Made by a program: the position numbers and the translations under genes
The notes under the pieces: model-generated
Databases searched by the model: none
Told to the model about the DNA's origin: nothing
What the model saw: the letters and a program-made list of their open reading frames with translations, nothing else
Virus record (IMG/VR): IMGVR_UViG_3300027743_000072
Coordinates: 1 to 29,638 of that record
DNA: 29,638 nucleotides
DNA from: a virus
Reading direction: 5' to 3' (one strand)
Shown: in pieces, positions 4,833-23,977 of the stretch
How positions within the stretch are numbered: the first letter of the stretch is position 1
Layout: every line of letters begins with the position of its first letter

Positions 4833-4839
4833 CTAGGGT

Positions 4840-4915
4840 GTGGCCCAGGGCTGAGTCCGTGTCTGTGGTGGGGTCGGGGTCTCGATCCTCTGCCACTTGG
4901 ACGGCCCTGGGCTAC
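4840..4915 (+). promoter_or_regulatory. Long structured leader upstream of the ParB/methyltransferase gene
   Basis: The gap of about 98 bases holds a strong imperfect hairpin. GTGGCCCAGGGC (4840-4851) pairs with GCCCTGGGCTAC (4904-4915) over 12 positions with one G-U. Nested inside are GTCC/GGAC and GTGG/CCAC pairings in the right order. The structure ends five bases before the GGAGGT ribosome binding site at 4921-4926. The tail is TTTTC, but the stem is too long and open for a typical intrinsic terminator. A translational or RNA-stability element, or a small RNA, is inferred. Confidence 0.45.
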
Positions 4916-4930
4916 TTTTCGGAGGTAAAT

Positions 4931-6214
4931 GTGAAGATACCTATCGAGCAAGTTTCCTACGAGAAAACAGAGGATTCCGACGACCTGAAGGCAGACCTTG
5001 AGAATATCTCATCTTCCCTTAAGGAAGTCGGGTTAAGCCACCCTATAATTGTTCGTCCGGCGAACGGTTCCTACTCGCTTGTCTCTGGTGAGAAGCGTCT
5101 GAGGGCAGCAGAACTCGCAGGATGGAAAGAAATTGAGGCAGAGATCCGTGAAGTCTCAGAAATCCAGGGTAAGATCATCCAAACTCATGAAAACCTTAAA
5201 CGACACAATCTCCCTTGGTGGGAGGAAGCCGCCCTCATCCAAGCCCTCCACGCCTTCCGACAGTCCGAGCACGGAGAAGGCCAAAGTGGAAGGCCCAAAC
5301 GTGACGAGCCGAAGAAAACCGGGTGGGGCATACGCGATACTGCTATCGAACTTGGAAAATCGCTTGGACCAATTGCAGAAGATCTCCAGCTCGCTCGGGC
5401 GGTCCAGCTTGACCCTTCTCTCCGAAACATTAGAGATAAAAAGACAGCTATCCGGCTTGTCCGAATTGCTGCGCAGCGACACCAGGCTGAGGAAGAAGCA
5501 GGACTGGGAGGAGGAGCAGGAGATTTCGCAGTTAACCAGACCTATCTCGGAGATTCAGCCTCCATCCTCTCCCAATTCCCCGCCCAGAGCATCGACCATT
5601 GCATCACCGACCCGCCGTGGATCAAGTTCTTCGACGAAACACTCACGCTAGACAAGAGGACCCTCCCTGTCCTTGAGCAGGTCTACCGAGTGCTTCGTCA
5701 TGACGGTTTCCTGTTCATGTTCTGTGGCTTCGACGACCTTTCCTACTACTGTGGATTTGACCGCAGAGACAATAAGACCGGGGATCTCATTCACACAAAT
5801 GGGGAGCTAGAGAGGTTAGGCTTCAACATCTCCAAAAGTCCCATGATCTGGCACAAGCTCAACTCCATGAGCCGCCGAGGTGTGAGGTCGTGGGAATACG
5901 ACAGGAACTACGAGCTAGGGATCATCGCGACCAAGGGCTCTCCAGCAATGACAGCTCCGACGGTGAGTAGCGCGGTCAAGACGTTCCCTGTGGTGCCGCC
6001 GGTCAAGCTCATCCACCCGAACGAGAAGCCAGTGGAGCTTCTGAAGGACATCATTAACGACCTGACCTACGAGGGGAACATCATCCTTGATCCCTTCGGT
6101 GGGTCTTTCGTGACTGCCGTCGCAGCCAAGGAATCCAAGAGGCGTTACGTAATCTGTGAGCGAGATAAGAAGTTCTATGATGCTGGCCGCAAGCGTCTAG
6201 GCTTCAAGGAGTAG
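4931..6214 (+). CDS. ParB-like domain fused to a beta-class DNA methyltransferase
   Basis: A 427-residue protein starting at GTG 4931, four bases after GGAGGT. Residues 1 to about 100 match the ParB/Srx-like N-terminal domain: GLSHPIIVRP (34-43), SGEKRLRAA (52-60) and HENLKRHNL (86-94). Residues 110-195 are a charged linker. The C-terminal domain is an N6-adenine or N4-cytosine methyltransferase. It has the catalytic DPPW (227-230), HPNEKP (362-367) and then the S-adenosylmethionine-binding DPFGGS (387-392), the order of beta-class enzymes. Such ParB-methyltransferase fusions are common in phages and protect or mark phage DNA. No partner restriction enzyme is seen. Target specificity is unknown. 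Confidence 0.88.
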   Translation: MKIPIEQVSYEKTEDSDDLKADLENISSSLKEVGLSHPIIVRPANGSYSLVSGEKRLRAAELAGWKEIEAEIREVSEIQGKIIQTHENLKRHNLPWWEEAALIQALHAFRQSEHGEGQSGRPKRDEPKKTGWGIRDTAIELGKSLGPIAEDLQLARAVQLDPSLRNIRDKKTAIRLVRIAAQRHQAEEEAGLGGGAGDFAVNQTYLGDSASILSQFPAQSIDHCITDPPWIKFFDETLTLDKRTLPVLEQVYRVLRHDGFLFMFCGFDDLSYYCGFDRRDNKTGDLIHTNGELERLGFNISKSPMIWHKLNSMSRRGVRSWEYDRNYELGIIATKGSPAMTAPTVSSAVKTFPVVPPVKLIHPNEKPVELLKDIINDLTYEGNIILDPFGGSFVTAVAAKESKRRYVICERDKKFYDAGRKRLGFKE

Positions 6215-6216
6215 CA

Positions 6217-6585
6217 ATGCGTATTGGAGTCTTAGTTTACATCTCCGGGCCAATTACACCCAAAGAGGAGTTCATGGCGGAGGAGAACGTCATTGAAGGC
6301 TTGAAGATGCACCTCAAGCTCACCGAAATGGGTATCCCCTCCCACTGCCCAATGCTCGTAGGTGGCTACCCTTCTGCCTGGCTGGTGGATTGGGAGGATT
6401 GGATCGCTCTGGACTTTGCGATCATCAACCGATGCACTCATGTGCTCCTTCTCCCTCGCTGGCTAACCAGTAAGGGCGCGCTCGAGGAGAGGGACTACGC
6501 TATCACAAAGGGGATTCCTATAGCGGAGAGCCTGGATGAGCTGGTGAAAATGCTCGAGGAAAGCGATGCTCGGGCAAAGGGTTGA
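6217..6585 (+). CDS. DUF4406-like nucleoside 2-deoxyribosyltransferase-fold protein
   Basis: A 122-residue protein of the DUF4406 type, related to nucleoside 2-deoxyribosyltransferases. It shows the N-terminal signature YISGPIT (8-14), a W-x-D-W-x-x-W-like centre (LVDWEDWIALDFAII), and a hallmark end, CTHVLLLPRWLTSKGALEER, followed by a G-I-P strand. Family members are found in many phages and are presumed to act on nucleotides or nucleosides, but their substrates are mostly unproven. It starts two bases after the methyltransferase stop and overlaps the polymerase gene by 20 bases, so it sits in a DNA-synthesis operon, consistent with nucleotide metabolism. Confidence 0.8.
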   Translation: MRIGVLVYISGPITPKEEFMAEENVIEGLKMHLKLTEMGIPSHCPMLVGGYPSAWLVDWEDWIALDFAIINRCTHVLLLPRWLTSKGALEERDYAITKGIPIAESLDELVKMLEESDARAKG

Positions 6586-9070
6586 GGGCCACGGGGCCAC
6601 CGATGCCAAGATCGTGATCGTCGGGGAGGCACCCGGAAAGGACGAGGAGGAGGAAGGGAGGCCATTCGTCGGTCCCTCAGGGAGGCTACTGAACGAGTGG
6701 TTGAAGCAGGCTGGGATTAACCGGCACGACTGTTACGTCACTAACGTCGTGAAGTATCGGCCTCCTTCCAACAACCTAAAACGGCTTGGAGAAATCGGCC
6801 ATACGATTGAGGAGGGAATCCCTCAGCTGTGGCAGGAGATAGGCCAGATAAATCCTAATGTGATCCTGGCCCTAGGAAACCTCTCTCTCAAGGTGCTAAC
6901 AGGTAAGGGTTCTGGCTTCTCTGGGATTCTGAAATACCGGGGTTCCATACTCCCTTCCTCCCACCTCGATTGCAAAGTCGTGCCCACGATCCACCCGGCT
7001 GCCTTCCTCCACTCCGAGGGTGAGGGAGCTAAGGGTGCGATGAAATACCAGATGAGGTATGTAGTCAACTACGACCTCCTCAGGCTGAAAGAACAGAGCC
7101 TGTTCAGACGGTATTCCCCACCTAGTCGGAATCTAGAAATCGTGAGGAGCCCCATCCAGCTCCAACGATTCCTAGATCTCTACGCGGATAAGAAGATCGT
7201 CTCAGTTGACATCGAGACGCTCTATGGGATACCCATCTGTATCGCTCTGGCCTTCAACGAATGGCACGGAATCTCCCTACCATTCTTTGACCTTATGTCA
7301 TGGCAAAATCTGGAGGGGATCTCCCGAACTGAACTCTCCGTAATGATCAAGATCCTAGCCACGTTCTTCGCTAGAAAAGACATCAAGGTCATTGGGCAGA
7401 ATTTCAAGTTCGATCATTCCAAGCTGGAGGACATCTCAGGGATCAAGATCGCCAACGTCCATTGCGACATCATGTTCCTGGCTCACACCCTCCATTGTGA
7501 GTTCGAGAAGTCCCAGGCATTCCTTGCATCCCTGTATACCGAAGAACCCTACTACAAGGACGAGGGGAGAGAGTTCGATTGGAAGAAGGACAATGTAGAC
7601 AGGCTCCTCCTTTACAACGCTAAGGATGCCGTAATCGCCTTCGAGATCTACCTTCGGTTAATGGAGGCGTGTAAGGAGCTGGTAGTTCCTGGGTTCCCAA
7701 ACTGGCTCGACGACTTCTTCTTCGGTTATGTGATGAAGTTGCATAACTTCTATAAGGATATGGAGGAAGTGGGCCTTGCGGTGGACAATACGAGGAGGAA
7801 GGAGCTCGTAAACGAATACGACGACAAGATCAAATTCGCGCAACACGAACTGAATACGATAGCAGGCTGGGAAGTCAATGTAAGCTCTCCGAAGCAGGTT
7901 CAACTTCTACTCTATAGACAGTTCAAACTGCCATTAAGGAAGGGCGTCGATGAAGATACACTGGTCGCTCTCGAAGCAAACATCGCCAAGCTCCCAGAGC
8001 ACAAACGAGCAATCAACCTCATCGGGATCATTCGAGGTTTACGAAAAGCAAAAGGGACATACTTTGAAGCTAAACCTGACTACGATGGCAGAATGCGAAC
8101 TTCTGTCCGAATTTGTGGGACTGAAACCGGGAGAACAAGTAACAGTATCCTTAAACCTCCACTTCGACCCACAAAAGTAGGGTTGGCCTTCCAGACCATG
8201 ACGAAACATGGTGAGATCGGAGCCGAGCTGCGCTCCTATTTCACCGCCGATCCCGGTTATGACTTCGTCGAAGTAGATCTTTCACAAGCAGAGGCCAGGA
8301 TCGTAGCTCACTTGGGACGTGATGAAAAGACCCTTAAACTATTCGCAGATAAGGTTGACATCCATAAGCTCACAGCCTCTTGGATATTTGGGACACCCCC
8401 TGAGAAAGTCACTACAGAGCTTAGGTTTATCGGAAAGACTACTCGGCACGCTGGAAATTACGACATGGGCAAAAGGAGGCTCATGCAGATTGTTAATACT
8501 GACGCCAAAAAGTTCAAGATTGGCATCAGCATTAGCGAGTGGCGTGGTGGTCAAATCCTGGACAAATTCCATAGCTTCTGTCCTAGCATCCGTAAGGTGT
8601 TCCACACTGAGATCAGAGAGGCGCTTGACCAAAACGACCGTGTCCTTGTCACTCCTTTCGGGAGATACCGAAAATTCTTTGACAGGTGGGGAGAAGATCT
8701 ATTTAGAGAGGCTTATGCTCACATCCCCCAGGCCACAGTCCCTGATCATCTACGACGAGCTGGACTCCGTGCCCTCGACCGATATCGAGAAGACAAGATT
8801 ACGCCTTATTTCATCGGAGGCAAAACTCCTTTCGTTATTGAGGCCCACGACGCCTTCCTTGCGCTTGTGCCACACGAATACGTCGGACGATACATCGAAA
8901 TCCTGAACGAGGAGTTAGAGAGACCGATAGACTTCACCAACTGCACCCTTTCACGAGGGCCGCTTGTCATCCCGGCGGAGGCAAAGGTCGGGAGGAATTA
9001 TAAGGAGTGTAAAGTAAAGGGTTGCCCCGGCTGCGAGGGGATGCACGATTACATTTTGAGGGCTGCATGA
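6566..9070 (+). CDS. Uracil-DNA glycosylase / 3'-5' exonuclease / family A DNA polymerase fusion
   Basis: An 834-residue replicative polymerase. Residues 15-170 are a family 4/5-like uracil-DNA glycosylase with GEAPG (20-24), GRPFVGPSGRLL (31-42) and HPAAF (143-147). Residues 205-370 are a DnaQ-like proofreading exonuclease: D215/E217 in DIE, N279 and D283 in NFKFD, and YNAKD with D354. Residues 380-800 are a Pol I-type polymerase. Motif A is EVDLSQAEAR (D571, E576), the O-helix has R620, K624 and Y632, and motif C is HDA (H761, D762). The Glu that usually follows the motif C Asp is Ala763, and the Pol I F762 position is His628. A Cys-rich end (KECKVKGCPGC) may bind zinc. It overlaps both neighbouring genes. 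Confidence 0.92.
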   Translation: MLGQRVEGHGATDAKIVIVGEAPGKDEEEEGRPFVGPSGRLLNEWLKQAGINRHDCYVTNVVKYRPPSNNLKRLGEIGHTIEEGIPQLWQEIGQINPNVILALGNLSLKVLTGKGSGFSGILKYRGSILPSSHLDCKVVPTIHPAAFLHSEGEGAKGAMKYQMRYVVNYDLLRLKEQSLFRRYSPPSRNLEIVRSPIQLQRFLDLYADKKIVSVDIETLYGIPICIALAFNEWHGISLPFFDLMSWQNLEGISRTELSVMIKILATFFARKDIKVIGQNFKFDHSKLEDISGIKIANVHCDIMFLAHTLHCEFEKSQAFLASLYTEEPYYKDEGREFDWKKDNVDRLLLYNAKDAVIAFEIYLRLMEACKELVVPGFPNWLDDFFFGYVMKLHNFYKDMEEVGLAVDNTRRKELVNEYDDKIKFAQHELNTIAGWEVNVSSPKQVQLLLYRQFKLPLRKGVDEDTLVALEANIAKLPEHKRAINLIGIIRGLRKAKGTYFEAKPDYDGRMRTSVRICGTETGRTSNSILKPPLRPTKVGLAFQTMTKHGEIGAELRSYFTADPGYDFVEVDLSQAEARIVAHLGRDEKTLKLFADKVDIHKLTASWIFGTPPEKVTTELRFIGKTTRHAGNYDMGKRRLMQIVNTDAKKFKIGISISEWRGGQILDKFHSFCPSIRKVFHTEIREALDQNDRVLVTPFGRYRKFFDRWGEDLFREAYAHIPQATVPDHLRRAGLRALDRYREDKITPYFIGGKTPFVIEAHDAFLALVPHEYVGRYIEILNEELERPIDFTNCTLSRGPLVIPAEAKVGRNYKECKVKGCPGCEGMHDYILRAA

Positions 9071-16757: not shown

Positions 16758-17144
16758 TTACACCTTCCTCAGTAAAAGTTCGCCGGGTTCATCTACGATC
16801 TCAAAGGAGAAATGTTTACTGATTAAGGTTGCAAACTGAGGATCTTTGATGAAACAATACAAATCTTCTAGACCAGCTAGGTCCGTCCCACGTATCGCTT
16901 CAAGTATAAGTAACTTAAGAGCTTCAACCTTGTTTCGTTGGCTGGCGTCTTTGTCCAGGAAGAACATAGCCTCGGCAAAAAGTCTGACTTGTCCGTAGGC
17001 GACGACTGTTCCTGATGAGTCCTCAACGACAGCATCGATAACCAGGTTATTCCGATTAGGAACGGAGAAGTCGTTAGCATGGTGCTTTCTCCAAATCTCG
17101 TCGATGACCTCCACATCATTCCGTCGAAAGCGTCTAATCTTCAT
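16758..17144 (-). CDS. GNAT-like acetyltransferase domain protein
   Basis: A 128-residue protein with the start of a GNAT N-acetyltransferase: MKIRRFRRNDVEVIDEIWRK, then two beta strands (NNLVIDAVVEDSSGTVVAYG) and a further strand ending MFFLD. The usual acetyl-CoA loop (R/Q-x-x-G-x-G/A) is not clear; the equivalent region reads DASQRNKVEALKLL, so CoA binding is uncertain. The start overlaps the stop of the DUF483/methyltransferase gene as ATGA, placing it in the same coupled set as the radical SAM enzyme. It might modify a virion protein or a host target. A non-catalytic GNAT-fold protein is an alternative. Confidence 0.6.
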   Translation of the reverse strand: MKIRRFRRNDVEVIDEIWRKHHANDFSVPNRNNLVIDAVVEDSSGTVVAYGQVRLFAEAMFFLDKDASQRNKVEALKLLILEAIRGTDLAGLEDLYCFIKDPQFATLISKHFSFEIVDEPGELLLRKV

Positions 17145-18499
17145 TTCGGTTTCAGAATACGAGATTCACAGGATTCGATTTGTTCTGAATCCACAAGAGT
17201 AAAATGGCGCGAAAGTAGAGTATCTATCTCTGGTATCCAAGGTTCATAGTAAGTGGTGACAATTAGGTATCGCGTATGTGCCCGGAGATGTCTGAGGAGC
17301 AGTTCAGCATCTTCCCCCTCTACCTCATTGAAACGATTGAGGGAGATTATGACAAGCTGGAAATCATCCCTCAAATACAAGCTAGTATTAAAGATATTAC
17401 CAAATTTAATGTTATCTCCAATACGGTCTACAGCTTTATGATAACGCTCGTCCCAACTCTCAACACCATATGGAACTAGGTAGCGATACTGGTCAACTAT
17501 GCGTTCTAACAATACCCCGTTACCACATCCGAGGTCAAGGACACGACCGCTATCCAATAGAATCTTGCTGACTGACCTAATAACGAGATCATGTGCCTTT
17601 CGCATTGCGCTGAAATTTGAGAACCCGTTGTCCGACCATGTATCCTTTATCCCTTGAATCATGGAGCTGGGACGAGAAGATTGAAAAGGGAATTCAGTTC
17701 CCGTCGCACCACCTTCCGGGTAGCTAGATCCTGGGAGATCGTATCGGATCTCCTCGGGTAACGCATCGCTGGAGGTAATTACCTTTAGAACTGGAGTCGT
17801 GATCATCGCTACACCGTGGAGGGAGGACCATCGGACAGGCCAGTTGAGCATGTCCCTAATCCAATCTACCTCAAGGTCAAATCCTGCTTGTGTAGCATGG
17901 GTCAGAATTTTATCACCAACAATGGAGGTAATCTCGCAACCCAGGGAGCAGGGAAGGTGGAACACAGAACGAATGCCGAGATGCCGCAATAAAATGTTAC
18001 AATGAAAAGTTCCGACATTCTTTGTGTTCCGAGTCATCGGGTAGGTCAGATCTCTCCAACCACGATCTACCCAATTGTCTTGAAAGAACTCAGTGCAGCA
18101 AGAGGGATAACCGAGATAAGTTCCGATCGTCAGATTATCCGACTCTAGCCAAGCTCTCATGAAAGCTTTGGGGTTATCCCCAATATAGACTCGATAATTC
18201 CAGGGCTTACCTTGCTCTAGTGGGATACTCGCATTCCCATATACTTTGGCTGCACCCTCTTGGCCAAGGATGACAAAGTCTAGTTCGTTATCATAGCAAA
18301 ATGCTTGAAGCTCCATCAGACGCTCAGGAGCTACTGTCTGTAAAGCGCCTCTCCTTAGCCCTGAGGTTACAGTTCCAAGCTCGATCTTGGGCCAGGCTGA
18401 GTTGATGTTTGCTATCTTCGGTTGCCAGATATTACGCGCTTGTTCCGACACCCAAATGATGCGTGTGAATTCTGGGAGGACGAAGTCTAGGCGATCCAT
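17141..18499 (-). CDS. DUF483-like domain fused to a class I methyltransferase
   Basis: A 452-residue two-domain protein. Residues 1 to about 230 carry a Cys signature: GYPSCCTEFF (C134, C135), then a conserved-looking N-x-LLRHLGIR and HLPCSLGCE (C184, C188). This resembles the DUF483 family, whose function is unknown and which may bind metal. Residues 300-452 are a Rossmann methyltransferase with VLDLGCGNG (320-328) as the S-adenosylmethionine-binding motif I and GVESWD as the acidic loop near 345-350. It overlaps the radical SAM gene by 13 bases and the GNAT-like gene by 4, so it probably acts in the same pathway. The substrate is unknown; a neighbouring peptide or protein is the natural guess. 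Confidence 0.65.
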   Translation of the reverse strand: MDRLDFVLPEFTRIIWVSEQARNIWQPKIANINSAWPKIELGTVTSGLRRGALQTVAPERLMELQAFCYDNELDFVILGQEGAAKVYGNASIPLEQGKPWNYRVYIGDNPKAFMRAWLESDNLTIGTYLGYPSCCTEFFQDNWVDRGWRDLTYPMTRNTKNVGTFHCNILLRHLGIRSVFHLPCSLGCEITSIVGDKILTHATQAGFDLEVDWIRDMLNWPVRWSSLHGVAMITTPVLKVITSSDALPEEIRYDLPGSSYPEGGATGTEFPFQSSRPSSMIQGIKDTWSDNGFSNFSAMRKAHDLVIRSVSKILLDSGRVLDLGCGNGVLLERIVDQYRYLVPYGVESWDERYHKAVDRIGDNIKFGNIFNTSLYLRDDFQLVIISLNRFNEVEGEDAELLLRHLRAHTRYLIVTTYYEPWIPEIDTLLSRHFTLVDSEQIESCESRILKPK

Positions 18500-19725
18500 G
18501 ACGGCTTCTCAGTTAAAAAGGTTGCTGGGATACCTTGCCTATTCATCGCATAATCCGTGTGGTCTCCATGCGCATCGCCATGAGGAACATCCCCATGAGC
18601 TACGTCACCATGAGCTACATCACCGTGGGATATGCCTTGCCAGCTTGCCAAGTAATCCCGTTCAATTTCCGCCTTGAATGCAGTATCCTTGGAGATAGGA
18701 AGCCTAGCCTCAGAGATAAGGTCAGTCTCAATACGCTCGAAAAGAGCATACCAAGTTTTGCAATCTTGTGTCCGATTCCGCCAGTCCCCATCGATGGCTG
18801 TTCCTGGACACTGACCCTTGCAGAAGATGAAGAAGGTGCAGTCCTTACATCCTCCATGTTCCTGAGGAGTCTTGTGGAGGAGGAGGTATCTCTCGTAGCC
18901 AGCCTCATCTGCTTTAACCCAGTTGACACCATCTTTATTAGCGCGACCACAATTAGACATAGAACCGTCAGGATTAATCCCCTGAACGGCATTAGTGGTG
19001 GAAGGGTCACAGTGGTTCCAAATACAGGAAACATTAGGATTCCTCTCGGTCAGGAGCTTGCGAATATCGGTAAACGGTTCCACATGGAGGCTAGAAGTTT
19101 TCGACCATTCGTAGAGTTCCAGGAACACATTCGTGGTCATTTCCTGTGTGAATCCGAGACCTTCCATCCCCTTCTCTACTTCGAGGAAATGGAGGTTGAT
19201 ATATCGGATTCCCCACTTCTCTACCTCATCAAGCCAGGCTGTTAGTTCAGGTAAGCGAGTCCCATTCGCTTGGTGAACAGTGACGATTAGAGAAGGATAA
19301 ATACCCTCCTCACAGAGCCGATGGATAGCCTTTATCGTCCGCTCAGTGCCCACCAAACTACCAGAATGATCATGACGAAAACTATTAAGCTCCCCAGGAC
19401 CGTCGATAGATATCCCCACGTAGACACCGTATTTCTTAAACAGGTCGATATGCGCCTCGGTGATGAGAGACCCATTGGTTTGGATTCCGTTCTTCCCGTA
19501 TTTTTCGTAGCCGAATCTCCAAACTTCTTCCAGATGTTCAATGGGGGCAAGTAGTGGTTCTCCTCCAAAAGTGACGAAATCCACACCTATCCGCTCGATT
19601 TGAGCCTTGACCCGAGGCCAGTCTCGTTTGGTCGTAATGTTACCTGCATCCCGCTGAGTCTCCTGGTAGCAATAGGAGCACTTGAGGTTGCAGGCAATAC
19701 CAACGGGGAGGTATTCTACAGTCAT
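18487..19725 (-). CDS. Radical SAM/SPASM peptide maturase with its own HGD repeats
   Basis: A 412-residue radical SAM enzyme. The 4Fe-4S site that cleaves S-adenosylmethionine is CNLKCSYC (C12, C16, C19), followed by FGGEPLL (53-59). The C-terminal SPASM domain fits the canonical pattern exactly: C239 to G254, GSMSNC (C259), C293-x2-C296-x5-C302-x3-C306, then C322. C234 may be an added ligand. SPASM proteins use auxiliary clusters to modify peptides or proteins, including ribosomal peptides. Residues 367-391 hold five HGD triplets and one HTD, resembling the repeats of the upstream gene. The start overlaps that gene's stop (TAATG). This is the likely catalyst of a virion-protein modification; the actual substrate is inferred. 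Confidence 0.88.
   Translation of the reverse strand: MTVEYLPVGIACNLKCSYCYQETQRDAGNITTKRDWPRVKAQIERIGVDFVTFGGEPLLAPIEHLEEVWRFGYEKYGKNGIQTNGSLITEAHIDLFKKYGVYVGISIDGPGELNSFRHDHSGSLVGTERTIKAIHRLCEEGIYPSLIVTVHQANGTRLPELTAWLDEVEKWGIRYINLHFLEVEKGMEGLGFTQEMTTNVFLELYEWSKTSSLHVEPFTDIRKLLTERNPNVSCIWNHCDPSTTNAVQGINPDGSMSNCGRANKDGVNWVKADEAGYERYLLLHKTPQEHGGCKDCTFFIFCKGQCPGTAIDGDWRNRTQDCKTWYALFERIETDLISEARLPISKDTAFKAEIERDYLASWQGISHGDVAHGDVAHGDVPHGDAHGDHTDYAMNRQGIPATFLTEKPSWIA
18553..18627 (-). repeat. HGD repeats at the radical SAM C-terminus
   Basis: A coding tandem repeat corresponds to residues 367-391 of the radical SAM protein. The H-x-D units are spaced five, five, five, four and three residues apart. 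HGDVA occurs twice and HGDVP once. The peptide DVAHGD is also present in the adjacent His-rich protein, showing shared repeat vocabulary between enzyme and putative substrate. Confidence 0.85.
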
Positions 19726-20612
19726 TATGGTCCAATGTAAGTCGGGTTATCGGTGTGAGGAGAATTTACGTGAGTTACATCAGTATGGTCCTGATGTGCT
19801 GCATTCTGATGGGGAGCATTCTGATGGGGCGTATCACCATGCGAGGAATTAGTATGCGCGCTGGAGTGAGCAGCATTCTGATGAGGCTGGTCATTGTGAT
19901 CGTCTACATGCGCTGAGTTAGAATGAGCCTGATCTGTATGGTCTGAGTGAGAAACGTCACTATGATCCTGGTGATTGTTTATACTACCTGAAGTATCATA
20001 GTGTGAAGTTTGGTCACCATGTCCTACACCATCAACATTTCCATCGCTATGGTAGGTAGGCTTGTCGCCATGTTCTACGTAATCAGAATGACCACCTGAG
20101 CTGCTATTTACATGAGGATTGTCAGTGTGAGTATTCGTATGAGGAACGTTGGTATGCCCGTCACCATGAAAATCGCTATGGGGATTATCGGTATGTGCAT
20201 CTCCATGAGACCCATTTGTGTGTGGGATTGAAACAGGAGGAACATTTACGTGTGGAGTGTTAACGTGGCTTGATCCTCCACCACCATCTCCATGAGCCAC
20301 ATCTTGATGAGCAATTCTGTGGACTTGATCTGCTCCAAGCCAACGAAAGTAGATCCATTCAATCCAGATAGAACCTTGTTGTCCATTAGGAATGACACCA
20401 GTCACAGCAGGCCCTGCGATATGGAGAACTTTAGTTCCAGACTCGTTGACATAAAGAAGGTTAGGTCCATCTACCCAAACGCAACCAGGCATGTAAGAGC
20501 CTGCGGGGATCACACCAACTAATAGACCATTCCATGCCCTTTCGGCTCCATCCTGATCGATGAAGCGAAAGGTGTCACCGGAGATCCAGATCGAACCGGC
20601 TTGCTTAGCCAC
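19725..20612 (-). CDS. Tail-associated protein with about 35 H-x-[D/N] repeats (putative rSAM substrate)
   Basis: A 295-residue protein. Residues 6-100 form about three repeats of a beta-rich unit (GSIWISG, GCVWVDG, GSIWIEW, with G-V-I-P-x-G links), as in a small fibre or propeller segment. Residues 102-288 contain 35 His triplets, of which 34 are H-x-D or H-x-N, mostly three to five residues apart, with Gly, Ser, Thr, Val or Gln in the middle. It starts at GTG overlapping the previous stop (TAGTG) and its own stop overlaps the radical SAM start. The layout resembles His-Xaa-Ser (Hxs) radical SAM substrates and aromatic-x-x cyclophane precursors. Metal binding by unmodified repeats is an alternative role. 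The exact family is not recognised. Confidence 0.75.
   Translation of the reverse strand: MAKQAGSIWISGDTFRFIDQDGAERAWNGLLVGVIPAGSYMPGCVWVDGPNLLYVNESGTKVLHIAGPAVTGVIPNGQQGSIWIEWIYFRWLGADQVHRIAHQDVAHGDGGGGSSHVNTPHVNVPPVSIPHTNGSHGDAHTDNPHSDFHGDGHTNVPHTNTHTDNPHVNSSSGGHSDYVEHGDKPTYHSDGNVDGVGHGDQTSHYDTSGSINNHQDHSDVSHSDHTDQAHSNSAHVDDHNDQPHQNAAHSSAHTNSSHGDTPHQNAPHQNAAHQDHTDVTHVNSPHTDNPTYIGP
19749..20309 (-). repeat. H-x-[D/N] triplet repeat array
   Basis: This 561-base coding region encodes the 35 His triplets. The DNA is variable at third positions and in the middle residue, so it is an old, selected protein repeat rather than a fresh DNA duplication. Spacing between His residues ranges from 3 to 10, most often 5. 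Confidence 0.85.
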
Positions 20613-21743: not shown

Positions 21744-22574
21744 CTAAATAGTTTGATAACAACCCATGAGTCTGATAGTGTCTCCAGCCTGAAGGATTAC
21801 TGGAATACTACTTGTAACATAATCTCCAGTAACACCTCGCATATGACCTTGATTTACATTAGATATCCCAGCCGTTAGTGGAACTGCCTTATCAATAGAG
21901 ACGTCGGTTAACATCCCGTGAAAAACTGGGAAAAGATATCCTACGTAAGCTGCTTGAAAGTCTTTTGGGACGTTAAAATAATAATACCCAGAACCAAAGA
22001 CAGTTGTAGACCCAGATGCCATCTCCCAGATAAACCATATAGTTCTATCTACCCTAGTGTATCTCCCACGAAGCCCACCGTTCCCGATTGCAGGCTGCAC
22101 CCCACTAGATGCCCATGTTGCAGCGTAATCTACCCAGGTCCCGATTGGATGTCCCAGACCATTGAGATCTATACCTCCTTGTGTAAGAAGGCCACCACCG
22201 CGAGAAATCATCAATGGAGTTTTCGTAACAGCAGTTTGATCGTCACTTAGACACTCAAAACGAATCGCATCCGTTCCTTGATATTGTAGTGTCCTCCAAA
22301 CCTTCGCACCAGCAGGCGCACCAGGGTCGACGTAGGTCGTCAACATGTTAGCGCCATTAATAATATTGCCCGACTGGAGAGTTTGTGGAACAAAATAGTT
22401 ATTAACGTGAGTATATGCTATATTCGCAGGCAACGGAGTCACAGGTGGTAGTCGAGCAGGGTCCATAACTCCCTCTGTGATGATAGACGCATTCAATCCG
22501 AGAGGACTCCAGGAGCTACCATTATCGGTGCTCTTCTCGAATATGTGCGTGCTCTGATTCCACCGTTGCCACAT
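21744..22574 (-). CDS. Phage tail fibre / receptor-binding protein
   Basis: A 276-residue protein starting at ATG 22574, which overlaps the upstream stop (TAATG) and follows GAGGAA. The N-terminus (STDNGSSWSPLGLN, then EGVMDPARLP) is a pattern common in phage tail fibres at the attachment and neck region. The centre holds Gly-rich loops (GGGLLTQGGIDLNGLG), and the C-terminal 130 residues are beta-rich with aromatic strands (RTIWFIWEMASG, YYYFNVPKDF), as expected of a host-binding head. The specific receptor cannot be deduced. Confidence 0.7.
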   Translation of the reverse strand: MWQRWNQSTHIFEKSTDNGSSWSPLGLNASIITEGVMDPARLPPVTPLPANIAYTHVNNYFVPQTLQSGNIINGANMLTTYVDPGAPAGAKVWRTLQYQGTDAIRFECLSDDQTAVTKTPLMISRGGGLLTQGGIDLNGLGHPIGTWVDYAATWASSGVQPAIGNGGLRGRYTRVDRTIWFIWEMASGSTTVFGSGYYYFNVPKDFQAAYVGYLFPVFHGMLTDVSIDKAVPLTAGISNVNQGHMRGVTGDYVTSSIPVILQAGDTIRLMGCYQTI

Positions 22575-23977
22575 TAAATGATTCCTCGAGCTTTCCAATC
22601 CACCACACGACTAACACGATTACCAGTAGAATCAAATACATACACCCTAAACCCAACAGGATTAGGAACGTCCGTGAAATCGAATATGACAGTATAAGGT
22701 TCAGTAACAGACTTGGTGGTGCAAGTAATAGACTCCACATCCTTGAAAGCTTTTTTGAAATTGACCTGTGTTCCTCCAACGTCGGTAAGAAGTGCGTTGA
22801 CCTCACCACCGTCGTTCTCACGCTTTACGCTCAGGGAGTAGGTCAGATTCCAGAGCTCGTAGAGAGCCTTATCAGAGGTTCCAGTAAACTCTAGACGAAT
22901 CTTAAGATACCTCATTGATGGAGAATATAGAGAGACACCAGCGACGAATGGAGTATAGGTAACACCGTCCTCAGAGGTTGCTAGCTTAACGATGATGGTA
23001 GTTAACTCCTGGTGAACGAAGAAGTTCCAAGTGACTGTGATGATGGTATTCTGAATGACCACCCCGTAGTCTATTACTTCCTCGTAGGAGCCAGTAGTTG
23101 CGGTCGGTTGGATGTAGATGGGATAGCCAGCATCAACTTGAGCTTGGATCGTTGCAAAACCGAAGTTAACAAAGTGTTCCTCCCAGGTAGAAGGGGCCCA
23201 GCAAGCGATGAGACTAGGGATATATGGATCTCGAATTACGTTAACCCTGGTTCCATTCAAACCAGAAACTCGAGTATCCTGGAGAGCATAATCAGGAGGT
23301 GTCTGAACCTCAACTGTTGTCTCTGCAAGTGGACCCTTGTTCCCTGCTATGTCGACCGAGACGATCCCATATCTATAAGCGCCAGCTACATTTTCGAAGA
23401 AGGAGAAGAAGGTAGCGTCAACATTGCCAGCGAAGATCCCATTTCGATATGCCTCATACGTTAAGATCCTAAACGTAGAGACCGGGGCTACCCAGCGGAG
23501 GAGGACGTTATTATCAATTACCGTGCTTATGAGGGAGATGGTTCCAATCGGAGGAACTGTGACAACAATAGATAAAGAGTCAGTAGAGAAGACCCCATTC
23601 GAGTTCAGGGTCTTCATATAAAATTCGTGAGTTCCTACCTTGAGGGCATCAATGTCGGCTTGAAGCGACATGATCCGAAAGAGAAAGAGACCAAACTCAA
23701 AGGAGGGTCCCTTGCGAAGCTCGTAACCATAGGCTCCTAGAACCTCGGTCCAATTGAAACGCACTGTTGTCGGAGTGAATATGAATGAGATGGAACCAGG
23801 AAGAACTGGAATCGGAACTTCAGCAGGAGGAGCCTGAGACTCCAGAACGAGAGGAAAAAGCTCATCCTGAACAAGCATCAACCCACGATTAAGCTCCTGA
23901 AGGATCTGGTAGAGACGTGGGTTATCGAGCTGAATACCCTGGATTAGGGCTTCAACGCTGATATGGTCCTGAGCCAT
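22574..23977 (-). CDS. Fibronectin type III-containing tail protein
   Basis: A 467-residue tail protein. Residues 1-50 are a helical N-terminus (LYQILQELNRGLMLVQDEL). It is followed by at least two fibronectin III-like beta domains (PGSISFIFTPTTVRFNWTEV, then IGTISLISTVIDNNVLLRWV). Next is a discoidin-like beta domain near residues 235-375, and a C-terminal strand set ending GFRVYVFDSTGNRV. Such modules are common in central fibre or tip proteins. Its start overlaps the nozzle gene stop (TAATG), and its stop overlaps the fibre start, so it probably links the tail tube to the fibres. Confidence 0.7.
   Translation of the reverse strand: MAQDHISVEALIQGIQLDNPRLYQILQELNRGLMLVQDELFPLVLESQAPPAEVPIPVLPGSISFIFTPTTVRFNWTEVLGAYGYELRKGPSFEFGLFLFRIMSLQADIDALKVGTHEFYMKTLNSNGVFSTDSLSIVVTVPPIGTISLISTVIDNNVLLRWVAPVSTFRILTYEAYRNGIFAGNVDATFFSFFENVAGAYRYGIVSVDIAGNKGPLAETTVEVQTPPDYALQDTRVSGLNGTRVNVIRDPYIPSLIACWAPSTWEEHFVNFGFATIQAQVDAGYPIYIQPTATTGSYEEVIDYGVVIQNTIITVTWNFFVHQELTTIIVKLATSEDGVTYTPFVAGVSLYSPSMRYLKIRLEFTGTSDKALYELWNLTYSLSVKRENDGGEVNALLTDVGGTQVNFKKAFKDVESITCTTKSVTEPYTVIFDFTDVPNPVGFRVYVFDSTGNRVSRVVDWKARGII

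Follow-up and report, generated by a model that had tools for sequence, protein, structure and literature searches.

Overlapping genes for a His-x-Asp/Asn repeat protein, a radical SAM/SPASM enzyme and a DUF483-like partner: a candidate protein-modifying system of phages and bacteria

We analyzed a window of 29,638 nt that covers the virus record IMGVR_UViG_3300027743_000072 and found that three genes with overlapping ends lie on its minus strand directly after the tail genes. They encode a protein with an array of His-x-Asp/Asn (H-x-D/N) motifs, a radical S-adenosylmethionine (SAM)/SPASM enzyme, and a protein with a DUF483-like domain. This three-gene set recurs in phages and about a dozen bacterial phyla and therefore points to an undescribed modification system. 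Judged from sequence, the system is real, conserved, widespread and apparently undescribed, and both the motif and the probable chemistry can be read from the genes: the enzyme very probably acts on the H-x-D/N motif, and the modification of each unit is probably a cross-link.

Pairing of the enzyme with H-x-D/N repeats

In a tblastn search, three Thermus phages (Cumys, phiMa, and phiLo) had the enzyme at 44–45% identity, and the first two also had the repeat protein. In Cumys and phiMa, the gene order is H-x-D protein (54 and 53 motifs, respectively), enzyme with an H-x-D tail, and DUF483 protein. The enzyme and a DUF483-like gene are also present in phiLo, in which three consecutive open reading frames (ORFs) of 478, 802, and 678 amino acids (aa) with 75, 104, and 58 H-x-D/N motifs (L005:17810-23672) are encoded 4–10 kb from the enzyme on the opposite strand. 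A profile search with these enzymes identified about 20 more loci in viruses and 58 contigs of bacterial origin, the cellular genomes having been sampled only through degenerate patterns. The bacterial carriers belong to the Acidobacteriota, Actinomycetota, Armatimonadota, Bacillota, Bacteroidota, Chloroflexota, Cyanobacteriota, Myxococcota, Nitrospinota, Planctomycetota, and Pseudomonadota and to several candidate groups. The initial annotation, which had spoken of a phage system, was right that phages carry it, but the system is not confined to them.

The pairing of enzyme and repeats was examined in both directions. As a strict cluster we counted at least four H-x-D/N motifs in 60 residues with three quarters of the His residues in the motif. 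Such a cluster lies within 3.5 kb of the enzyme gene at 40 of the 58 bacterial and 19 of the 22 viral loci, compared with none of 47 control loci with other radical SAM enzymes from the same scan and none of 3,039 ORFs that lie farther than 6 kb from it in bacterial loci. The search of phage genomes for a SPASM gene beside an H-x-D/N gene that the initial annotation had proposed found the pair at most loci, and the outcome that it had named as fatal, homologous loci in which the two genes never occur together, contrasts with pairing at 59 of 80 loci.

The reverse scan used DNA patterns for H-x-D spacing only. It recovered 41 distinct non-monotonous H-x-D/N ORFs, 32 of which have the enzyme in the same locus, whereas the enzyme accompanies 4 of 29 monotonous H-x-D ORFs. 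Searching whole records added the enzyme for L143, L236, L287, and the L162/L190/L212/L218 group; of the four ORFs left over, L222 and L342 run off the contig end, and L277 and L338 look like wrong-frame artefacts. The treatment of L162, L190, and L212 as enzyme-free exceptions was dropped, as their sister record L218 (104,871 bases) has the enzyme at 90257-91429, not beside the repeat gene. All 14 His residues of the 368-residue protein in L218, L162, and L212 are in H-x-D, as are 13 of 13 in L190.

The H-x-D/N motif and its variants

Of the 37 His residues in the window protein, 34 belong to a motif (22 H-x-D and 12 H-x-N), and the others lie in LHIAG, VHRIA, and AHSSA; the ratio of 34 to 35 given by the initial annotation is true of the repeat region, that is, from residue 102 onward. 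In 100,000 shuffles of a 200-residue region, the mean number of motifs was 7.7 and the maximum 19, compared with the 34 observed. We pooled motif statistics over 102 unique repeat segments with 2,816 His residues and found Asp or Asn at +2 of 94.4% of them (89% Asp and 5% Asn), with Ser at 0.4% and His at 1%. The same position is Asp or Asn for 35% of Tyr (95% interval 27–43), 25% of Phe (17–35), and 16% of Trp (8–26), whereas the values for all other residues range from 0% to 9% with a mean of 5%. The residues that take the place of His are Tyr, Phe, and Trp alone, and not metal ligands. Decay of His codons was rejected as the source of Tyr: the other residues one base away (Asn, Asp, Leu, Pro, Arg, and Gln) stay at 6%, whereas Phe and Trp show raised values in viral loci although their codons differ from those of His at two or three bases.

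The arrays are not monotonous, as x varies and spacings are mostly 3 to 10. Of 2,658 motifs, one has Pro at x, and Pro accounts for 0.1% at +3, whereas it stands just before His in 17%. When homologous sites of Cumys and phiMa are compared, the first motif position differs at 1 of 58 (HYD to YYD), compared with 8 of 80 positions outside the motif, and IPHVD/HVDHVD of Nannocystis corresponds to IPFVD/HIDYVD of Plesiocystis.

The third residue differs in one enzyme clade. In the bacterial loci L130, L131, and L134, the substrates have terminal H-x-K repeats, and the three enzymes group as a single clade (Shimodaira–Hasegawa-like approximate likelihood ratio test [SH-aLRT] 99), which suggests co-variation of enzyme and substrate at this position. 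The proposal that the enzyme acts on H-x-D/N units therefore gains strong support from the two-way pairing, the replacement of His by aromatic residues alone, and the matched switch to H-x-K.

Substrates differ in build. Those of viruses either share N-terminal GSIWI-type repeats, three of which lie in the N-terminal approximately 98 aa of the window substrate, or extend long tail-like proteins at the C-terminus. Among bacterial substrates, those of L085, L088, L090, and L141 have apparent twin-arginine or lipoprotein signals by eye, others are proteins of 900–1400 residues with a C-terminal array, several of them behind a similar helical-looking segment, and further ones are peptides shorter than 120 residues. 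L109, L137, L135, and L136 encode short leader-type peptides with a single terminal H-I/L-D and have a second, different radical SAM gene nearby; this layout is the classical one for clusters that make small modified peptides.

Two further loci were noted. In L025, a far more distant radical SAM enzyme (27% identity) is encoded near interrupted H-x-N-repeat ORFs (YNNHRNTGYNNHTN; 5006-5731 and 8001-8975), and this locus is perhaps an outlying branch of the system. L104:8957-9238 from Pseudoalteromonas encodes a 94-residue peptide with HTD/HSD motifs on either side of a (VD/ID) run, and its neighbors encode a PhyH-like oxygenase, the enzyme, a DUF483–DUF364 fusion, and a TonB receptor.

The window locus, the enzyme and the DUF483-like partner

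The initial annotation had described the repeat-protein and radical SAM genes correctly, and their coordinates, lengths, and coupling by TAATG, which is read directly in the sequence, were all confirmed; it had not included the third, DUF483-like gene, which belongs to the unit and whose start overlaps the enzyme stop by 13 bases. The start of the substrate gene coincides with the stop codon of the gene for a fibre-like protein, a homolog of which has the same place in locus L001, and the PHROG 1727 protein shows that the unit stands last in the block of tail genes (table 1).

Table 1. Features of the window and of related loci (L numbers)
Feature	Position	Strand	Remark
H-x-D/N repeat protein, 295 aa	20612..19725	-	GTG start; proposed substrate
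H-x-D/N array, residues 102-288	19749..20309	-	34 motifs, 35 His
Radical SAM/SPASM enzyme, 412 aa	19725..18487	-	proposed modifying enzyme
Radical SAM CxxxCxxC, residues 12-19	19669..19692	-	
SPASM cysteines, residues 239-322	18760..19011	-	
Enzyme C-terminal tail, residues 367-391	18553..18627	-	six H-x-D motifs; HGDVAHGDVAHGDVPHGDAHGDHTD
DUF483-like domain fused to MetW-like methyltransferase, 452 aa	18499..17141	-	
Fibre-like protein upstream of substrate, 208 aa	20612..21238	-	GTGA-type motif
Tail/host-specificity protein	22574..23977	-	PHROG 1727
H-x-K substrates	L130:2-1180, L131:4007-6667, L134:6832-9972		e.g. LPHIKIPLPHIKVSLPHVKAPHLKHIKLF
Short peptides with terminal H-I/L-D	L109:4713-4949, L137:12697-12966, L135:6523-6819, L136:5526-5759		ends VVHIDI, VVHIDF, IIHLDG, IIHIDV, respectively

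Both cysteine patterns of the enzyme are complete, the radical SAM motif being C12-x3-C16-x2-C19 and the SPASM pattern, called exact by the initial annotation and found to be so, C239-x14-G254-x4-C259 ... C293-x2-C296-x5-C302-x3-C306 ... C322; these cysteines are invariant in an alignment of 30 family members. The top NCBIfam scores are those of the dynobactin maturase DynA (the best, with 99 bits against a cut-off of 450), the cyclophane maturase AmcB, and sulfatase maturases, including anaerobic sulfatase maturase TIGR03942 (90.4 bits against 349), and every one is below its cut-off. The nearest solved folds are anSMEcpe (PDB 4k36-4k39), which is also nearest by sequence, and ChlB. A tail with two or more H-x-D motifs is a feature of 36 of the 46 viral enzymes and of 5 of the 57 bacterial ones. 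This tail is predicted to be disordered (predicted local distance difference test [pLDDT] about 30) and may be a docking, regulatory, or self-modified segment. In a quick tree of the family's own enzymes alone, viral and bacterial enzymes part with a single change, and midpoint rooting places the bacterial enzymes inside viral diversity. The support for the split is weak (23), and transfer between viruses and bacteria may have run in either direction.

The N-terminal approximately 300 aa of the window partner carry conserved CC, H/PC, C, and WxxLHG motifs. We call the domain DUF483-like because the cut-off of the Pfam model DUF483 (PF04467) is missed: the window and Cumys proteins have no match to it, and the L088 protein scores 18.5 bits against a gathering cut-off of 25. 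The structure models were built without Thermus phage rows, and that of the DUF483-like domain is good (mean pLDDT 88.7); a search for solved relatives returned no convincing one, the best being 2guk (Z 6.9 over 100 residues), a resemblance that may reflect a common arrangement. The partner is present in 109 of 123 enzyme loci, as a fusion in 19 and as a separate gene in 90, and many of the enzyme loci without it end close to the enzyme. Our guess is that the domain is a metal-binding accessory or a second enzyme.

Some loci add a TIGR04267 beta-hydroxylase, a PqqD-like protein, or a methyltransferase; the TIGR04267 hydroxylase and PqqD are known peptide-tailoring genes and were counted in favor of protein modification. 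The TIGR04267 aKG-HExxH peptide beta-hydroxylase is encoded beside or fused to the enzyme in L119:10001-12640, L132:11984-13378, L124:12004-13440, and L102:12055-12906, and genes for a PqqD-like protein and an HprK-like kinase adjoin the H-x-D gene in L088.

Elsewhere in the window, a 128-residue ORF at 16758-17144 (minus strand) overlaps the end of the DUF483-methyltransferase gene by four bases and may belong to the operon; it is acetyltransferase-like by eye and has no family match. On the plus strand, 6566-9070 encodes an 834-residue protein that by eye combines a family-4-type uracil-DNA glycosylase domain with a DNA polymerase I-like polymerase, and 4838-6214 encodes a 458-residue protein that by eye has a ParB-like N-terminus and a DNA methyltransferase with a TDPPW motif.

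Proposed reaction, alternatives and known systems

We propose that the three overlapping genes would form a post-translational modification unit of substrate, enzyme, and DUF483-like partner, the last with a methyltransferase in the window. With SAM, the enzyme would abstract a hydrogen from the C-beta of Asp or Asn at the third place of H-x-D/N, and that C-beta would be joined to the imidazole ring of the motif's His, two residues earlier, with a change of -2 Da per motif. Repeated along the array, the reaction would turn up to 34 motifs of the tail-region protein into three-residue macrocycles and make the chain stiff and protease-resistant. We infer this bond because precedents cover each half of it, and from the nearest NCBIfam models and folds: OscB joins Trp to the C-beta of Asn or Asp, YxdB joins Tyr to the C-beta of Asp, HaaB and YhhB join C2 of His to the C-beta of Ala or Arg, and dynobactin has a link from a His nitrogen to the C-beta of Tyr, all between residues two apart (PMC11002830). 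On these grounds a side-chain cross-link from His to the third residue is the likely product, although it is less certain than the action of the enzyme on the motif.

Four observations weigh against cross-linking as described. The score of the enzyme stays below every curated NCBIfam cut-off for cyclophane-forming families, its nearest solved fold is a sulfatase maturase, which forms no cross-link, and some bacterial loci have no H-x-D cluster by the strict test. Furthermore, in bacterial substrates Asp or Asn at +2 is not enriched for Phe (5 of 106) or Trp (2 of 27), only Tyr being raised (9 of 33), and the aromatic rule therefore rests mainly on viral loci. An appreciable though clearly smaller likelihood goes to an enzyme that acts on the motif and makes something else, by epimerization, decarboxylation, or alteration of Asp that a methyltransferase or hydroxylase then caps. 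The pairing of enzyme and motif would hold for any reaction, some loci have TIGR04267 homologs and methyltransferases adjacent to, or fused with, the enzyme or the partner, and the sulfatase maturases, as the nearest solved relatives, do not cross-link; however, reactions at a single residue leave unexplained both the strict i, i+2 spacing with an aromatic residue at i and the exclusion of Pro at x.

The remaining explanations place the function outside the motif or deny it. His and Asp are common metal ligands, and the L104 locus encodes a TonB receptor and DUF364, a domain for heavy-metal chelation, yet it is improbable that the motifs are metal sites and that the enzyme is a passenger or modifies something else: Cys, Asp, and Glu in place of His reach 6%, compared with 35%, 25%, and 16% for Tyr, Phe, and Trp, one clade uses H-x-K although Lys is a poor ligand, and the pairing is near-obligate from both search directions. 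The motif data agree better with a side-chain bond between an aromatic residue and the one two places on than with metal binding. Still more improbable is the reading put forward for the Thermus phages, in which the module modifies DNA. PMC11437467 places homologs of the enzyme and of DUF483 next to cyanobacterial deazapurine genes and notes DUF483 fusions with methyltransferase or rSAM domains, but it also gives the Thermus phages as lacking deazapurine genes; moreover, the conserved third partner is an H-x-D/N protein rather than a nucleotide enzyme, and the nearest SPASM families modify peptides or proteins. Low-complexity drift or simple-sequence expansion, with adjacency by chance, has a negligible likelihood and was rejected on the shuffles and on the contrast between varied and monotonous ORFs. 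Monotonous H-x-D ORFs without the enzyme do exist in the same database, but the arrays considered here vary in x and spacing, and between Cumys and phiMa the first motif position is more constant than its surroundings and its one change is to Tyr.

The radical SAM/SPASM peptide enzymes known so far mainly make small products and act on one to a few sites. The targets proposed here would have 10 to 100 near-identical sites per chain and would be phage tail-region proteins and large, in part exported-looking, bacterial proteins. If cross-linking is true, phages harden or functionalize virion proteins by radical chemistry, for which we know of no description, a test of what DUF483 does comes within reach, and the His-x-Asp unit is a simple genetically encoded polypeptide staple. 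Cumys and phiMa can be propagated on a laboratory host, which opens the question to direct testing. We are evenly divided on the broader proposal that a shared three-component machinery installs dozens of His-to-Asp/Asn/Lys macrocycles in large surface or virion proteins, with staples as structural material and not as an antibiotic.

Several known systems were compared with the one described here. The tips of T4 gp37-type tail fibres have metal-binding H-x-H motifs, but in our repeats His stands at +2 of 1% of His. DUF483 is, to our knowledge, not known in Hxs systems. These systems likewise combine radical SAM proteins with a His-x-residue motif (PMC9062424, citing Haft and Basu), but they have the radical SAM pair HxsB/HxsC and Ser at the third place, whereas the window unit has one radical SAM enzyme and Ser stands at +2 of 0.4% of His in the repeats; Hxs models are absent among the 25 best NCBIfam matches listed for the enzyme. 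In TvgA/TvgB, a radical SAM enzyme also modifies a short repeated motif many times per chain, but the motif is TVGG, the product is poly-cyclopropylglycine with the cyclopropane on Val, and the peptide is predicted to be exported (PMC9062424). The enzyme anSMEcpe differs in forming formylglycine at one site without H-x-D. The dynobactin maturase (DynA in NCBIfam, DynE in PMC11002830) makes a His–Tyr C–N link between residues two apart and is the top scorer, but its substrate is a short antibiotic precursor and the window enzyme is far below its cut-off.

The closest described locus is the "rSAM module" of Thermus phages (2024), which consists of an rSAM protein and two proteins of unknown function, one with DUF483, and for which PMC11437467 reports similar loci in prophages and suggests a role in DNA modification. 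It has the same three adjacent genes in the same order as the window, namely Cumys_13 (XKB90002.1; 54 motifs), Cumys_12, an rSAM enzyme 44% identical to that of the window and also with an H-x-D tail, and Cumys_11, the DUF483 protein; the passages of PMC11437467 consulted mention neither the repeats nor a role as substrate. The view of the initial annotation that no phage system of this layout had been described therefore does not stand for enzyme and DUF483 protein, which were already reported as a module, but appears to stand for the substrate, which went unrecognized there. In the open-licence literature we found no report of a His-Xaa-Asp substrate with a radical SAM enzyme, and priority is not certain.

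The comparison with three-residue cyclophanes drawn by the initial annotation is apt: the system works like a three-residue cyclophane system, although it does not have all the features that define one. The triceptide systems (XncB, OscB, MscB, YxdB, HaaB, and YhhB) likewise have a radical SAM/SPASM enzyme and a motif of an aromatic residue, x, and a further residue, linked from i to i+2, and His as the first and Asp/Asn as the third residue are each known (PMC11002830). Unlike in the triceptides, the window enzyme reaches no named family, a DUF483-like partner is present, and the cross-link is inferred from sequence. Triceptide precursors are short and have a leader, as do the peptides of L109, L135, L136, and L137, from which the tail-region protein of the window differs. 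Finally, triceptide products are short peptides, whereas the proteins that would be modified here are of phage structural type or bacterial proteins of up to 900-1400 aa, with up to ~100 motifs.

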